From contig JAGOKS010000019.1 of NCBI GenBank assembly GCA_017994425.1, positions 1 through 34,591 of the forward strand: a DNA stretch of 34,591 bases, written 5' to 3'. The notes beneath the pieces were generated by a model. That model ran no database searches and was not told where the DNA came from. It worked only from the letters and a program-made list of their open reading frames with translations. Position numbers and translations under genes: made by a program. Shown here in pieces: positions 13,045 to 30,228 of this stretch. Every line of letters begins with the position of its first letter. The stretch's first letter is position 1. The DNA is from Bacteroidales bacterium (GTDB lineage: Bacteria; Bacteroidota; Bacteroidia; Bacteroidales; WCHB1-69).

Positions 13045-13686
13045 TTATTTATTCTTAGACAATTTGACAATTAAACCGGCAAAATAGGTTGTTTGGTACG
13101 GGATGTCGAAAAAGGAAGTATCTTTTGAAAATTTTTGGTCTACTGCTAATAATAAAGGTCCATGAATAGGAACAACTTCAAGGCTATGGATGATTTTTTC
13201 TCTTTTTAATATAGATTTAATCCATTGAGAATATTTTTCGTATTCTTTATCTAAGTTTTTTTTTGCGTCTGCAAGATTGCTTAGATTTTCATCGTATAAT
13301 ATACTGGCAAAATACACATTTTTTATTTTTGGCATACCTAAACGCTCAGAATCTTTGAGCATTTGAGATAATTTTAGCAAATCGCTTTCTAATCTGTTTT
13401 TTGAGGGATTCACTAATCTTGTTTTTATGTAAGTAAATAAACTCTTCGATTTCAGTTGATTTGTTGAAACTCCCATCCATCCGGGATTATCTTGCTTATA
13501 GTAATCTACTATATACGGTACTCCATAATTATAATTTAATTTGCCGATAGCTTTGGCAATATTCAGCGTAAGTAAACATTCGGGCATAGAGTTCCCGTCA
13601 AATTTTCTGCTAATATTCAATACATCTAAACAAGTAGTATGTATACCTGTCAGTATTTGTTTCTCGATTTTTATATAGTGCAGCAT
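13045..13686 (-). CDS. Unrecognised protein, paralogue A of a tandem pair
   Basis: I do not recognise this 213-residue protein. It has no signal peptide or membrane segment and is probably cytoplasmic. It is clearly related to the next gene upstream: both share IEK-I-G-TCLDVLN-S-KFD, then TLNIAKAIG-LNYNYGVPY, NPGWM, R-LNPSK, L-KLS-LK, YFASIL-D and a C-terminal FAGLI-KL. The strongest blocks are at about residues 15-58, 70-72, 90-96 and 125-134. This copy has a longer C-terminal variable section, LAVDQKFSKDTSFFDIPYQ. The conserved NYNYGVPY and NPGWM blocks do not match a catalytic motif I know. A TAnnTTTG promoter lies 17 bp upstream, so it may be transcribed independently of its paralogue. 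Confidence 0.72.
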   Translation of the reverse strand: MLHYIKIEKQILTGIHTTCLDVLNISRKFDGNSMPECLLTLNIAKAIGKLNYNYGVPYIVDYYKQDNPGWMGVSTNQLKSKSLFTYIKTRLVNPSKNRLESDLLKLSQMLKDSERLGMPKIKNVYFASILYDENLSNLADAKKNLDKEYEKYSQWIKSILKREKIIHSLEVVPIHGPLLLAVDQKFSKDTSFFDIPYQTTYFAGLIVKLSKNK

Positions 13687-13813: not shown

Positions 13814-14434
13814 TTAAACTACCTTGTTTAATTTAATAATTAATCCTCCAAAGAATATTTCTTTATTAACATTTTCGTTGAGATTTTCGTTTGTTAAATT
13901 TTGTGATTCAACAGTAGAAATAGATTCATAGATAGGAATAATTTTTGTCTCACAACTGATGTTTTCTTTCTTAATTGTATTGTTGACCCATTTAGTATAG
14001 ATAATATTTTGTTTTTTAAAAAATTTTTTCGCTTCTTTTTGTGTTGTTATGTCTTTGTCAAATAAAATACTTGCAAAATAAGTGTGTTTCATGTTATTGT
14101 TTTTCAAGTAATCGGATAGCTTGATAAGATCTTCTTTAAATTTCTTTTTAGAAGGATTCAGTAAACGGACTTTAATAGAGGTAAGCGGTTCTCTTATGTT
14201 GTTGTTTTTCATAGTAATATTCATCCATCCGGGATTATAGGTTTTCTCAAATCGAATGTAATAGGGTACACCATAATTATAGTTTAGATTTCCAATTGAT
14301 TTGGCTACGTTTAAGGTAGTCATATGATCGGGGATGTATTTAGCATCAAATTTTCCGCTAAAATTTAGCACATCTAAACAGGTTTTTCTCAATCCGCTTA
14401 CTATTTCTTTCTCTATATTTTTAAAATCAGGCAT
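13814..14434 (-). CDS. Unrecognised protein, paralogue B of a tandem pair
   Basis: A 206-residue protein, probably soluble and cytoplasmic, homologous along its full length to the gene just downstream. Conserved blocks are the N-terminal IEKEIVSGLRKTCLDVLNFS, TLNVAKSIGNLNYNYGVPY, YNPGWM, KVRLLNPSKK, LIKLSDYLK, HTYFASILFD and the C-terminal FFGGLIIKL. It differs by a lysine/asparagine-rich C-terminal third (IYTKWVNNTIKKENIS and NLTNENLNENVNKE). The pair arose by tandem duplication and has diverged well beyond recent copying. Two genes in the same orientation, 127 bp apart, each with its own promoter, suggest separately regulated copies. No family assigned. Confidence 0.72.
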   Translation of the reverse strand: MPDFKNIEKEIVSGLRKTCLDVLNFSGKFDAKYIPDHMTTLNVAKSIGNLNYNYGVPYYIRFEKTYNPGWMNITMKNNNIREPLTSIKVRLLNPSKKKFKEDLIKLSDYLKNNNMKHTYFASILFDKDITTQKEAKKFFKKQNIIYTKWVNNTIKKENISCETKIIPIYESISTVESQNLTNENLNENVNKEIFFGGLIIKLNKVV

Positions 14435-14606
14435 TGTTTTTTTGTTTTTGATAAATGTTATGATAGAAATTTATAAAAATGCAAATATTCATGCAAGAAG
14501 GTAAAATTAAACTGCAAAATATTTTTCTTTGTCATTTGAATTCTTAAATTAATTGAATCTTTCTTTGTTGTTTGTATGATACAATTTGTTTTTTTAAAAT
14601 TTTGCG

Positions 14607-14640
14607 CAAAGATACTAATTAAATTTTAAAAAAAAACAAA
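14607..14640 (-). promoter_or_regulatory. Candidate promoter of paralogue B
   Basis: Minus-strand TATCTTTG (14614-14607) fits TAnnTTTG, and a TTTG (14640-14637) sits 22 bp upstream. The leader to the ATG at 14434 would be about 165 nt, unusually long for this window. Confidence 0.45.
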
Positions 14641-14928
14641 ATTATAGGGAAAGTTAAAAAATATTTTGAGAAGAGTTTGCCTACATATATTATATCGTAA
14701 ACAAATCTATAAATTTTAGAAATGTATGGTTTGTTGTGTATATATAATAAGATGTATAGAAGTTTTAAGTCTGAGAATTAGGAAAAGAAATTAGTTTATG
14801 CAATAAGCAATTTAAAAACTCCTATGGCAATCTCAGCAATAGTACTTACAATTCACTAACGTAAAAATCAAAATGATTGGACGGGGAATAGTTTTAAGGG
14901 GAAATGCGTCTTTTTAATACCTGCAATA

Positions 14929-14956
14929 TTACATCTATCTTACATAAATATTACAT
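14929..14956 (+). promoter_or_regulatory. Candidate Pho-box-like operator: three TTACAT repeats at 11-bp spacing
   Basis: TTACAT occurs at 14929-14934, 14940-14945 and 14951-14956, each separated by exactly five AT-rich bases. Direct repeats with an 11-bp period are the binding architecture of PhoB/PhoP response regulators, and the Bacillus PhoP repeat is TT(A/T/C)ACA-N5. The site is about 30 bp upstream of a plausible -33 box and precedes the DUF47-PiT phosphate-uptake genes. The regulator identity is inferred from architecture and context only. Confidence 0.5.
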
Positions 14957-14984
14957 TAATTTTAAAAATTGCATATAAGTGTGG

Positions 14985-15012
14985 TTTTGTAAAAGAATTA
15001 TGAGAATATTTG
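14985..15012 (+). promoter_or_regulatory. Possible promoter of the phosphate-uptake genes
   Basis: TTTTG (14985-14989) and TATTTG (15007-15012) are 17 bp apart. The -7 box is a shortened form of TAnnTTTG, as expected for an activator-dependent promoter. The leader to the DUF47 ATG would be about 90 nt. Confidence 0.3.
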
Positions 15013-15109
15013 CATAACGAATTTTAAAGAATTATGTCAAATAAAATACTTGGGTAGTAGAGATTTAAGTAATTAGTAACAGAAAATATATATTTTAATT
15101 AAATAAAAA

Positions 15110-15760
15110 ATGAAAATAAGTCAATTAGTGTCCTTTTTAGCCCCCAAAGAAAATAAATTTTATCCTTTATTTAATAAGCAGTCCGATTTATTATTGGAAG
15201 CCTCCGAACATTTGTTGAAGTTTGCATCTGCCTCTGAATGGGAGGAAAGGGAGCAGATTTATAAGTCGATTAAATTATGTGAAATGCAGGCAGATGATAT
15301 TACCCACACGATTTTTGATGAGCTGAATCGTACGTTTATCACTCCATTTGATAGGGAAGATATTCAGTTATTGGCATCAAAAATGGATGATGTGTTGGAT
15401 TACATCAATTCAGCTATCAAGCAATGTGTATTATACAAACCAAAAGTATTCACTCATTTCATGGATGATATTACCGCGTTGATTCATCAAGGGGCAGTAC
15501 ATTTACATACAGTATTTCATTTGTTACCGGAGATACAAAAATCACCGGATAAAATTTTGGCAGCATGTATTAAAGTCAATGAAATAGAAAATGAAGCCGA
15601 TGATGTATACGATAATTTTTTAATAGAATTGTTTGAAAACGAGAAAAATGCGATTGAATTGGTCAAGCGTAAAGAGATTATGGCATCTTTGGAAGAAGCT
15701 ACCGATCGTGCTGAAGACGTTACGGATGTAATAAAATCAATCATTATAAAATTTGCATAG
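15110..15760 (+). CDS. DUF47 family PhoU-like protein
   Basis: All-helical, cytoplasmic PhoU-like protein (DUF47/TIGR00153), 216 residues, the usual length. Acidic motifs of the metal-binding helices are visible: CEMQADDITHTIFDELNRTFITPFDREDI (read in two pieces, about 61-90) and EIENEADDVYDNFLIELFE (about 158-176), with a final ATDRAEDVTDVI. Members are almost always encoded beside PiT phosphate transporters and are thought to control them, as is the case here: the PiT gene starts 2 bp after this stop, so the two are translationally coupled. A candidate Pho-box lies upstream. Confidence 0.92.
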   Translation: MKISQLVSFLAPKENKFYPLFNKQSDLLLEASEHLLKFASASEWEEREQIYKSIKLCEMQADDITHTIFDELNRTFITPFDREDIQLLASKMDDVLDYINSAIKQCVLYKPKVFTHFMDDITALIHQGAVHLHTVFHLLPEIQKSPDKILAACIKVNEIENEADDVYDNFLIELFENEKNAIELVKRKEIMASLEEATDRAEDVTDVIKSIIIKFA

Positions 15761-15762
15761 TA

Positions 15763-16755
15763 ATGGATACAACCATCGTAATCATTGTAGGTATTGTCAT
15801 AGCTTTCTTTTTCGATTTTATCAATGGTATGAACGATGCCGCTAATTCAATAGCTACCATTGTTGCCACCAAAGTCTTAACCCCTTTACAAGCCGTATTC
15901 TGGGCTGCTTTTTTTAATTTTGCGGCTGTTTTTATTTTTCATGTTGGCATTGCCAATACCATTGGGAAAGGGATAGTAGATACAAGCATCATTAATGAAT
16001 ATGTTATTATTTCGGCGGTAGTAGGTGCCGTAATATGGGCTTTTACATGTACGAAATTAGGCTTACCCATAAGTGTATCGCATTCTTTAATAGGAGGACT
16101 TATCGGTCCTGCTTTGTTCTTTTTCGGCTCTAAGGCTTTGGTGGTTTCAGGAATAATAAAAGTAATGCTATTCATTGTATTATCACCTTTAATTGGTTTT
16201 ATCTTAGGCTATTTTATTATGATTATAACCATGTATATTTTTCGTAAATCAAATCCCACAAAAGTAGAACATTGGTTTCATTATATGCAATTGTTTTCTT
16301 CAGCGATTTTTAGCTTAGGACATGGCTCTAACGATGCTCAAAAAACTATGGGTATAATAACTATGCTGCTTGTTTGCGGTGGTTTTATTGATACCTTTGA
16401 AGTCCCTAATTGGGTTGTTTTTTCCTGTTATACGTGTATCTCTTTAGGTACGATTACCGGAGGGTGGAAAGTAATCCGTACACTGGGAGACAAATTAACA
16501 CCTTTAAAACCGGTTCATGGTTTTTGTGCCGAAACTGCCGGTGCTCTTACCTTGATTGGAACTGCACTGGGAGGTATTCCCGTAAGCACAACACATACTA
16601 TTACAGGTTCTATTGTTGGAGTAGGGATTACACGACGTATATCGGCTGTGCGTTGGGCAACAACTAAAAACATTGTGTGGGCATGGGTGTTGACAATTCC
16701 AATTGCTATGGTTTTATCGGCAATAATATATTGGGTCTTTACGTTTTTTATCTAG
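15763..16755 (+). CDS. PiT family inorganic phosphate transporter
   Basis: Low-affinity inorganic phosphate permease driven by ion gradient (PiT family), with 330 residues and about ten hydrophobic segments. Both signature repeats of the inverted-topology family are present: DFINGMNDAANSIATIVATK near the N-terminus (about 19-38) and GHGSNDAQKTMGII (about 187-200). Each repeat also has the second-half signature, PISVSHSLIGG and PVSTTHTITGSIVG. The ATG is 2 bp after the DUF47 stop. The PLD-like gene follows after 25 bp, which makes a three-gene unit. Confidence 0.95.
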   Translation: MDTTIVIIVGIVIAFFFDFINGMNDAANSIATIVATKVLTPLQAVFWAAFFNFAAVFIFHVGIANTIGKGIVDTSIINEYVIISAVVGAVIWAFTCTKLGLPISVSHSLIGGLIGPALFFFGSKALVVSGIIKVMLFIVLSPLIGFILGYFIMIITMYIFRKSNPTKVEHWFHYMQLFSSAIFSLGHGSNDAQKTMGIITMLLVCGGFIDTFEVPNWVVFSCYTCISLGTITGGWKVIRTLGDKLTPLKPVHGFCAETAGALTLIGTALGGIPVSTTHTITGSIVGVGITRRISAVRWATTKNIVWAWVLTIPIAMVLSAIIYWVFTFFI

Positions 16756-16780: not shown

Positions 16781-17311
16781 ATGTTTTCTCCTTTTATACG
16801 TTATATTGCCAATGAACAACATTATGCTGATGTTGTACAGGAGATTACAAAGCTTAAACATGATGTGTGGATAGGCACTTCAGATATCAAAGATATGTAC
16901 ATAAAACGGAATAACGTAGTAATCCCTTTTTTAAAAATATTAGCAGAATTATTAGACCGTAAAGTAAATGTACGATTGATACATGCCAAGGAACCGGGCC
17001 CGAATTTCAGAAAGGATTTTGATAAATATCCGGCATTAATAAAGGGATTGGAAAGAGTACTTTGTCCCAGAGTGCATTTTAAACTCATTATTTTCGATTT
17101 ACATACGGTTTATATAGGCTCTGCTAATTTAACCGGTGCAGGATTAGGTATGAAAAGTAAAGATAATCGCAATTTTGAATCGGGAATACTTACCAATGAT
17201 CCCGAAATTGTTGCAAAAGCTATTGATCAATACGATAATGTATGGATGGGCAAGTACTGTCCAAGTTGTAATAGAAAAACCTTTTGTGGTGATAGAATTG
17301 ATATGATTTAA
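16781..17311 (+). CDS. Small phospholipase D-like protein with one HKD motif
   Basis: A 176-residue member of the PLD-like superfamily with a single HKD motif, His99-x-Lys101-x4-Asp106, followed by GSANLTGAGL (113-122) and a second conserved stretch ending NFESGI. Proteins with one motif normally dimerise to build the active site, as in Nuc-type nucleases. No signal peptide is visible. The C-terminus adds three cysteines (Cys160, Cys163, Cys169: CPSC-N5-C) that could bind a metal. Possible activities are nuclease or phosphodiesterase; the sequence does not decide. The gene lies 25 bp behind the PiT gene and is probably cotranscribed, but a direct role in phosphate uptake is not implied. Confidence 0.78.
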   Translation: MFSPFIRYIANEQHYADVVQEITKLKHDVWIGTSDIKDMYIKRNNVVIPFLKILAELLDRKVNVRLIHAKEPGPNFRKDFDKYPALIKGLERVLCPRVHFKLIIFDLHTVYIGSANLTGAGLGMKSKDNRNFESGILTNDPEIVAKAIDQYDNVWMGKYCPSCNRKTFCGDRIDMI

Positions 17312-30086: not shown

Positions 30087-30149
30087 GAGTCCCGTGTCCC
30101 GAGTGCCGAGAAAAGAGTGAAGAGTGAAGAGTGAAGAGTGAAAAGTGAG
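30087..30149. repeat. Heptamer repeat array I
   Basis: Nine consecutive 7-bp units in one register: GAGTCCC, GTGTCCC, GAGTGCC, GAGAAAA, four identical GAGTGAA and AAGTGAG. The register is perfect, but the unit changes from GC-rich to A-rich along the array. Confidence 0.85.
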
Positions 30150-30166
30150 TCAACGCATTGAAAAAC

Positions 30167-30228
30167 TGATAGCTGATAGCTGACAGCTGAGAGCTCTTCT
30201 CGGGACTCGGCACTCGGGACTCGGCACA
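30167..30228. repeat. Heptamer repeat array II
   Basis: Consecutive 7-bp units: TGATAGC twice, TGACAGC, TGAGAGC, TCTTCTC, GGGACTC, GGCACTC, GGGACTC and a partial GGCAC. The last part is the inverse complement of the GAGTCCC/GAGTGCC units in array I, so the two arrays could fold into a long imperfect hairpin. A 16-bp piece, CTGACAGCTGAGAGCT, recurs at 30235-30250. Confidence 0.8.

Follow-up and report, generated by a model that had tools for sequence, protein, structure and literature searches.

The window analysed here, a stretch of 34,591 nucleotides from the draft genome of an uncultured Bacteroidales bacterium (2.24 Mb, 88.5% complete), contains upstream of a DUF47-PiT phosphate transport operon a series of TTACAT repeats, which are very probably a Pho box, i.e. 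the operator through which PhoB would control this operon. On the - strand the series is a perfect run of TGTAA half-sites, and we therefore regard it as a Pho box that is reversed relative to the operon; as far as can be judged from the sequence, it is a lineage-specific variant with an unexpected, reversed geometry. The operator recurs before several phosphate genes of the genome, as exact copies in the case of the PiT and Na/Pi cotransporter genes, and as matches to an independently derived model in the case of the pstS operon and phoB. A consensus combined with a fixed promoter geometry should make Pho regulons readable from Bacteroidales genomes, including those of uncultured lineages, and should permit a clean test of whether the orientation of the box sets activation or repression.

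PhoB regulons have been already studied in B. fragilis, a member of the order Bacteroidales, and in Flavobacterium. In the former, pst is under the control of PhoBR together with a Na/Pi transporter and a phosphate permease, and PhoB binds a 512-bp fragment of the pstC promoter, for which the accessible part of the paper gives no box sequence (PMC3547664). The system described here shares with it the order and, as predicted from the sequence, the control of pst and phosphate transporters by PhoBR. As far as the accessible parts of the respective papers go, the Pho regulon of Flavobacterium is described without a motif (PMC8115612), putative Pho boxes are marked at plcP clusters (PMC4796936), and nothing is said on PhoB in PMC9723704. 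The open literature, to which our search was confined, yielded no defined sequence of a Bacteroidota Pho box and nothing usable on a strand rule for PhoP of B. subtilis; an earlier description of the box in subscription papers or regulon databases is possible.

The repeat array and its conservation in the genus

The original prediction of three TTACAT repeats in an 11-bp phase, separated by five-base spacers (CTATC and AAATA on the + strand) and followed by DUF47 and PiT genes, holds exactly (Table 1). A probable weak fourth unit continues the register, in which TTAAA is kept in all three full-length PiT upstreams of the genus. The exact triple lies 153 bp before the DUF47 start, within an intergenic region (14435-15109) of 22% G+C. 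The unit of a Pho box is 11 nt long and repeated head-to-tail (accessible text of PMC4415409), and the array consists of such direct repeats of 11-nt units; its - strand reads TGTAATATTTA TGTAAGATAGA TGTAAT, with TGTAA at three consecutive 11-bp positions and no mismatch to TGTAA-N6-TGTAA-N6-TGTAA. The PLD-like gene, located 25 bp downstream of PiT, possibly belongs to the same operon.

Table 1. Features of the phosphate transport locus in the window
Feature	Position	Strand	Evidence
Putative Pho-box unit 1, TTACAT (ATGTAA on the - strand)	14929..14934	+	exact match
Putative Pho-box unit 2, TTACAT	14940..14945	+	exact match
Putative Pho-box unit 3, TTACAT	14951..14956	+	exact match; TTACAT in G002, TTAAAT in G003
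Probable weak fourth unit, TTAAAA	14962..14967	+	11-bp register
Candidate -7 element, AATATTTG(CA)	15005..15012	+	conserved as AATnTTTGCA in 3/3 PiT upstreams of the genus
DUF47 / PhoU_div protein, first gene of the operon	15110..15760	+	PF01865, 97.2 bits
PiT-family inorganic phosphate transporter	15763..16755	+	PF01384 (PHO4/PiT), 306 bits
PLD-like protein	16781..17311	+	PF13091, 51 bits

Divergently from the phosphate operon, the - strand encodes two adjacent and visibly similar proteins of 213 and 206 aa (13045-13686 and 13814-14434), neither of which has a Pfam match. Elsewhere in the window, short tandem repeats are present between long ORFs at 30101-30227 (five copies of the 7-bp AAGAGTG and two of the 14-bp CTCGGGACTCGGCA). 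No matches were obtained when the window was scanned for tRNAs and against Rfam.

The other exact triple of the genome is located on contig C11, 72 bp before a gene for a Na/Pi cotransporter (PF02690, 214 bits; TIGR00704, 234 bits with a cut-off of 210). When the window genome (G000) was compared with five other draft genomes of the genus, the array was found in all three full-length PiT upstreams (G000, G002, G003) and in all five Na/Pi upstreams (G000, G002, G003, G004, G005), with 0-1 mismatches in six of them and 2-3 in the weaker Na/Pi arrays of G004 and G002. The eight cases are not fully independent of one another, given the close relationship of G000 to G005 (95% in Na/Pi). In the relative UBA5266 (71% identity in DUF47) the array also precedes DUF47, with a sequence identical to that of G003. 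In the alignments of the genus upstreams, conservation is mainly confined to two blocks, the box and a TTTG element. In other genera of Bacteroidales, most PiT and Na/Pi genes lack a box of this kind, which counts against the reading as a PhoB operator. Upstream of DUF47 in G002, about six 11-bp registers are occupied by TTACAY-like units, most of them recognizable.

A Pho promoter derived independently from pstS genes

Genes for pstS were identified with TIGR00975 at 30 loci across Bacteroidales, from which one (L181) was dropped for having no upstream sequence. Among the remaining 29 upstreams, [TC]GTAA pairs at a distance of 11 occur 13 times in the sense orientation, as compared with 0.1 in shuffles, and never in antisense; further peaks appear at 22 and 33. 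A position weight matrix with the layout (nGTAAC N5)x4, exactly 5 bp, TAATATTGC, fits 15 of the 29 upstreams, and its scores are bimodal: these 15 reach 35-52 bits, whereas none of the other 14 attains -3, and the 99th percentile of shuffles is 1.9. The iteration of the matrix was seeded with the layout, so the 5-bp spacing was first proposed by eye and then tested; what carries weight is the bimodality, the comparison with shuffles and the sites found beyond the training windows. There, the model finds 11 distinct sites, with no match in 298,214 shuffled strand-bases: three before phoB (in G215, G005 and G007), four before a pstS-linked family of ~330 residues, and the remainder at the head of pst clusters. 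With these sites included, 20 of the 29 pst clusters have the promoter. Of the 20 genomes with the promoter, 18 encode a PhoB that scores over its cut-off, vs 3 of the 9 without (Fisher p 0.004, kinship ignored), while for the pstS-proximal promoters alone the association has p 0.09.

In the window genome the model recognizes the pstS operon (24.3 bits), with the units CTTCAC/TGTAAT/CTTTAT/CGTAAT, 5 bp and TACTTTTGC, as well as phoB (18.5 bits), and these are the only matches above 12 bits in 122,404 bp of its sequence, a non-random sample of stretches chosen for earlier matches. The half-sites before both genes are degenerate. The phoB upstreams of the sister species G003 (-4.9) and G001 (-1.3) do not fit the model, a further point against the reading as a PhoB operator. 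The motif obtained from pstS is the same 11-bp repeat as in the window, which bears out the PhoB/PhoP-type spacing proposed for the latter. The prediction of a phosphate-starvation operator is thus upheld as to the kind of the site, but its core is better described as TGTAAY on the opposite strand than as TTACAT, and, with a box that is reversed and lies further upstream than the canonical one, induction by starvation cannot be taken for granted. The core had been further thought specific to Bacteroidota; we examined its group specificity within the order Bacteroidales.

Two kinds of proteins were noticed in the course of this analysis. The ~330-residue family is conserved and secreted-looking, and stands under Pho promoters at six loci (L139, L151, L164, L166, L173, L177), in the last four of which it adjoins pstS; it has no Pfam or NCBIfam name where tested, and is a candidate for an outer-membrane phosphate protein. 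The pstS gene of the window genome itself (271 aa, PF12849) is preceded by a gene for a 423-aa protein, porin-like by eye, which has no Pfam match (both within 2111-4227 of L248, on C92).

Promoter geometry and the sign of regulation

The -7 assignment of the TTTG element was made solely by its conservation. The Bacteroidota-type -7 has the sequence TAnnTTTG, which we take the candidate element to resemble. Measured from start to start, it lies 54 bp from unit 3 and 43 bp from unit 4 in the window, and 53-54 bp and 42-43 bp, respectively, in all three PiT upstreams of the genus; in all five Na/Pi upstreams the TTTG element, which at most of them reads TTnnTTTGyAA, follows the last TTACAT at 41-42 bp. 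These values suggest a common helical phase of the PiT and Na/Pi promoters, with the reservation that the -7 assignments have some freedom and that one genome, G236, differs. The gap between the window box and the candidate -7 amounts to ~37 bp from unit 4 and 48 bp from unit 3. The window box does not have the pstS-type arrangement, as no direct box stands 5 bp before the -7; its scores by the full pstS model (1.1 sense, 9.7 antisense, vs 35-52 for pstS) are low because the canonical spacing to the -7 is absent.

From these arrangements we infer the following mechanism. When phosphate is scarce, PhoR would phosphorylate PhoB, and PhoB~P would bind head-to-tail to an operator of three to four 11-bp half-sites, with one protomer per TGTAAY half-site and all protomers on the same side of the helix. 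Bound at pst and phoB, it would sit against the -7, in place of an upstream promoter element, whereas at PiT and Na/Pi of the genus it would be bound in the reversed orientation, with ~37 bp between the last half-site and the candidate -7.

A PhoP box of Salmonella comprises two half-sites, unlike the three to four proposed here, and the regulator that binds it is the Mg2+-responsive PhoP. According to the accessible text of PMC3335776, promoters activated by PhoP have direct boxes 12 nt from the -10 or reverse boxes 30-58 nt upstream, and at any position one orientation alone is active. The Bacteroidales promoters parallel architectures I and V of this system, with the direct boxes ~10 bp and the reverse boxes ~37 bp from the -7 (counted from the nearest half-site core), and the reversed box is found at a conserved distance within the range of 30-58 nt. 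Given this resemblance of a reversed box ending ~37 bp upstream to the reverse PhoP boxes, we narrowly favor activation, by an upstream contact of PhoB with RNA polymerase, to which we would give even chances.

Alternatively, the same operator could serve repression, with PhoB~P turning off the low-affinity PiT and Na/Pi transporters while Pst is on, a reading that we consider plausible though less probable. It agrees with the presence in one genome of a direct, proximal box at pst and phoB and of a reversed box at both low-affinity transporters. Architecture V promoters of Salmonella, moreover, carry an additional PhoP box that coincides with the -10 or follows it, and no further TTACAT/TGTAA pair was seen between the box and the start codon in the window, which speaks against activation, as does the reversed PiT box of G236, where the -7 is at 36/47 bp vs 42/53 bp in the genus, i.e. 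half a turn out of register (this genome has no PhoB over the cut-off). An unusually placed PHO box is also associated with the orfA-pit operon of S. meliloti, an alphaproteobacterium, where orfA is presumably a DUF47-type gene. Unlike the window box, it is situated close before the presumed start of translation, and the operon is repressed on phosphate starvation (accessible text of PMC3131613). In B. fragilis the evidence points both ways, as the Na/Pi gene BF4351 goes down 101-fold in low phosphate in the wild type and is unchanged in a phoB mutant, but the phosphate permease BF3715 depends positively on PhoB (accessible text of PMC3547664). Against repression stands also the position of the window box, which is clear of the candidate core promoter. 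Finally, the DUF47-PiT operons of three other genera have the direct, pstS-like arrangement (G007, 30.8 bits; G014, 22.7; and, weaker, G057, 18.7), which argues against repression and indicates that the geometry at this operon changed during evolution.

Beyond the choice between activation and repression, we tentatively propose, at somewhat less than even confidence, that PhoB of Bacteroidales uses one operator word, direct at pst and phoB (four half-sites, 5 bp from the -7) and reversed at PiT and Na/Pi, to obtain opposite or differently tuned outputs, so that the orientation of the box would be a readable sign code, for which the two orientations of the PhoP box in Salmonella offer a parallel.

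The probable regulator and the strand served by the box

The window genome encodes a PhoB/PhoR pair of the Bacteroides type. PhoB scores 282.5 bits with NF053854 (cut-off 270) even though it is truncated by a contig end, and PhoR, encoded beside it, scores 585 bits with NF053855 (cut-off 500). The best PDB match of the DNA-binding domain of PhoB is E. coli PhoB, and the recognition helices of the two are nearly identical (DRTIDVHITRLRK vs DRTVDVHIRRLRK). Both systems have a winged helix of the PhoB type and head-to-tail 11-nt units, and at pstS the promoter element is directly preceded, in both, by a box in the direct orientation. In contrast, the half-site is CTGTCAT in E. coli and TGTAAY here, the promoter element is a -10 in the former and a -7 in Bacteroidales, and the window box is reversed and lies further upstream. 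The phoB gene is split across the ends of two contigs (the end of C103 and the start of C94), and the copy on C103 runs into unrelated sequence after ~30 codons, perhaps through an insertion or a break in the assembly.

Besides PhoB, a single Trans_reg_C protein, L130, was found in the draft genome. This orphan OmpR-type regulator of contig C131 is also PhoB-like (TIGR02154, 199 bits; NF053854, 192 bits; both below the cut-off), and as the draft is 88.5% complete, further regulators of this kind may be missing. It is nevertheless improbable that L130 binds the box instead of PhoB, since the box family precedes pstS and phoB and goes together with genomes that have PhoB over the cut-off.

It is even less probable that the box belongs to a promoter of the other strand, driving an antisense RNA or a divergent gene, for which its orientation would be direct. 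The half-sites on the - strand do read TGTAAT/TGTAAG, and in G002 the antisense score reaches 21.9, where TGTTATTG, which resembles a -7, stands at the canonical distance. However, the antisense scores are only 9.7 for the window box and 13.2 for that of G003, and -3.8 (G000) and 15.8 (G003) at Na/Pi; the antisense window, G003 and Na/Pi sites have no TTG in the right place, and the nearest divergent gene starts ~495 bp away.

Frequency of the tripled repeat in the genome and in Bacteroidales

In the whole draft genome, the TTACAT-N5-TTACAT pair occurs at two places, both times as part of a triple. In 2000 shuffles of the intergenic region, any exactly tripled 6-mer with a fixed spacing of 7-23 was obtained in 12, and one with a spacing of 10-11 bp in a single shuffle. 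Although the region has 22% G+C and degenerate matches are common, a chance repeat is the least probable of all explanations, as the two exact triples observed, against 0.0004-0.001 expected in the 2.24 Mb under an order-1 model, both precede phosphate transporters and are conserved across species. With up to three mismatches there is no genome-wide excess (17 matches vs 22 for the reversed control pattern), and therefore only near-exact copies are informative. The pairwise search proposed for pst, phoU and phosphatase upstreams did recover the Na/Pi copy but missed the sites at pst and phoB, whose boxes are degenerate and oppositely oriented. Near matches of the window genome were annotated on contigs 68, 32, 103, 47, 66, 117, 127 and 131; the one on contig 103 is the phoB promoter, and the others proved irrelevant. 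Matches common to G000 (C49) and G005 (C138) are near no recognizable phosphate gene.

Among 393 Bacteroidales genomes, the near-exact triple with 11-bp spacing was found in 27, that with 10-bp spacing in 10 and that with 12-bp spacing in 35. We compared one 11-bp locus per genome from 26 genomes, leaving out the window genome and further places in G294, G383, G236, G323, G059 and G231, with 30 of the 12-bp loci. Since a period of 12 favors coding sequence (27 of these 30 loci are inside genes), the 12-bp spacing is a poor control on its own, and the 10-bp spacing was added as a second one. Intergenic loci facing a gene start make up 22/26 at 11 bp, 5/10 at 10 bp and 3/30 at 12 bp, and phosphate genes adjoin 6/26, 0/10 and 0/30, respectively. 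The absence of enrichment before phosphate genes, named at the outset as the outcome that would speak against the operator, was thus not observed, the other exact triple of the genome being likewise in front of Na/Pi. The six phosphate-adjacent loci are at phoU (G055), PiT with a divergent pst-linked gene (G236), Na/Pi (G215), a member of the pst-linked family (G130), Porin_O_P (G154) and pstS (G146). The profiles used to call phosphate neighbors were local, and among their seeds the one for PhoU and two of the three for porins had been taken from the very 11-bp loci under study; for five of the six loci there is independent support from Pfam/NCBIfam (phoU, PstS, PHO4, Na_Pi_cotrans and Porin_O_P), while the sixth (L151) is backed solely by similarity to the pst-linked family without a Pfam name.

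The remaining 20 of the 26 loci have no recognized phosphate gene nearby, and several of them are probably chance occurrences or iteron-like arrays. Long 11-bp arrays were observed in G001 (C243, TGTAACATTAC) and G294 (C85, TTACATAATCA), where the neighboring genes look replication-related by eye; these iteron-like arrays look like a Pho box and give rise to false matches. G323 carries a multi-copy TTACAT-N5-TTACATATAAATTACAT element, with 12 matches in the forward and reverse orientations together and three to the control; at the one locus inspected (L143) it has no phosphate gene nearby, and it is possibly a dispersed repeat or the site of another regulator.
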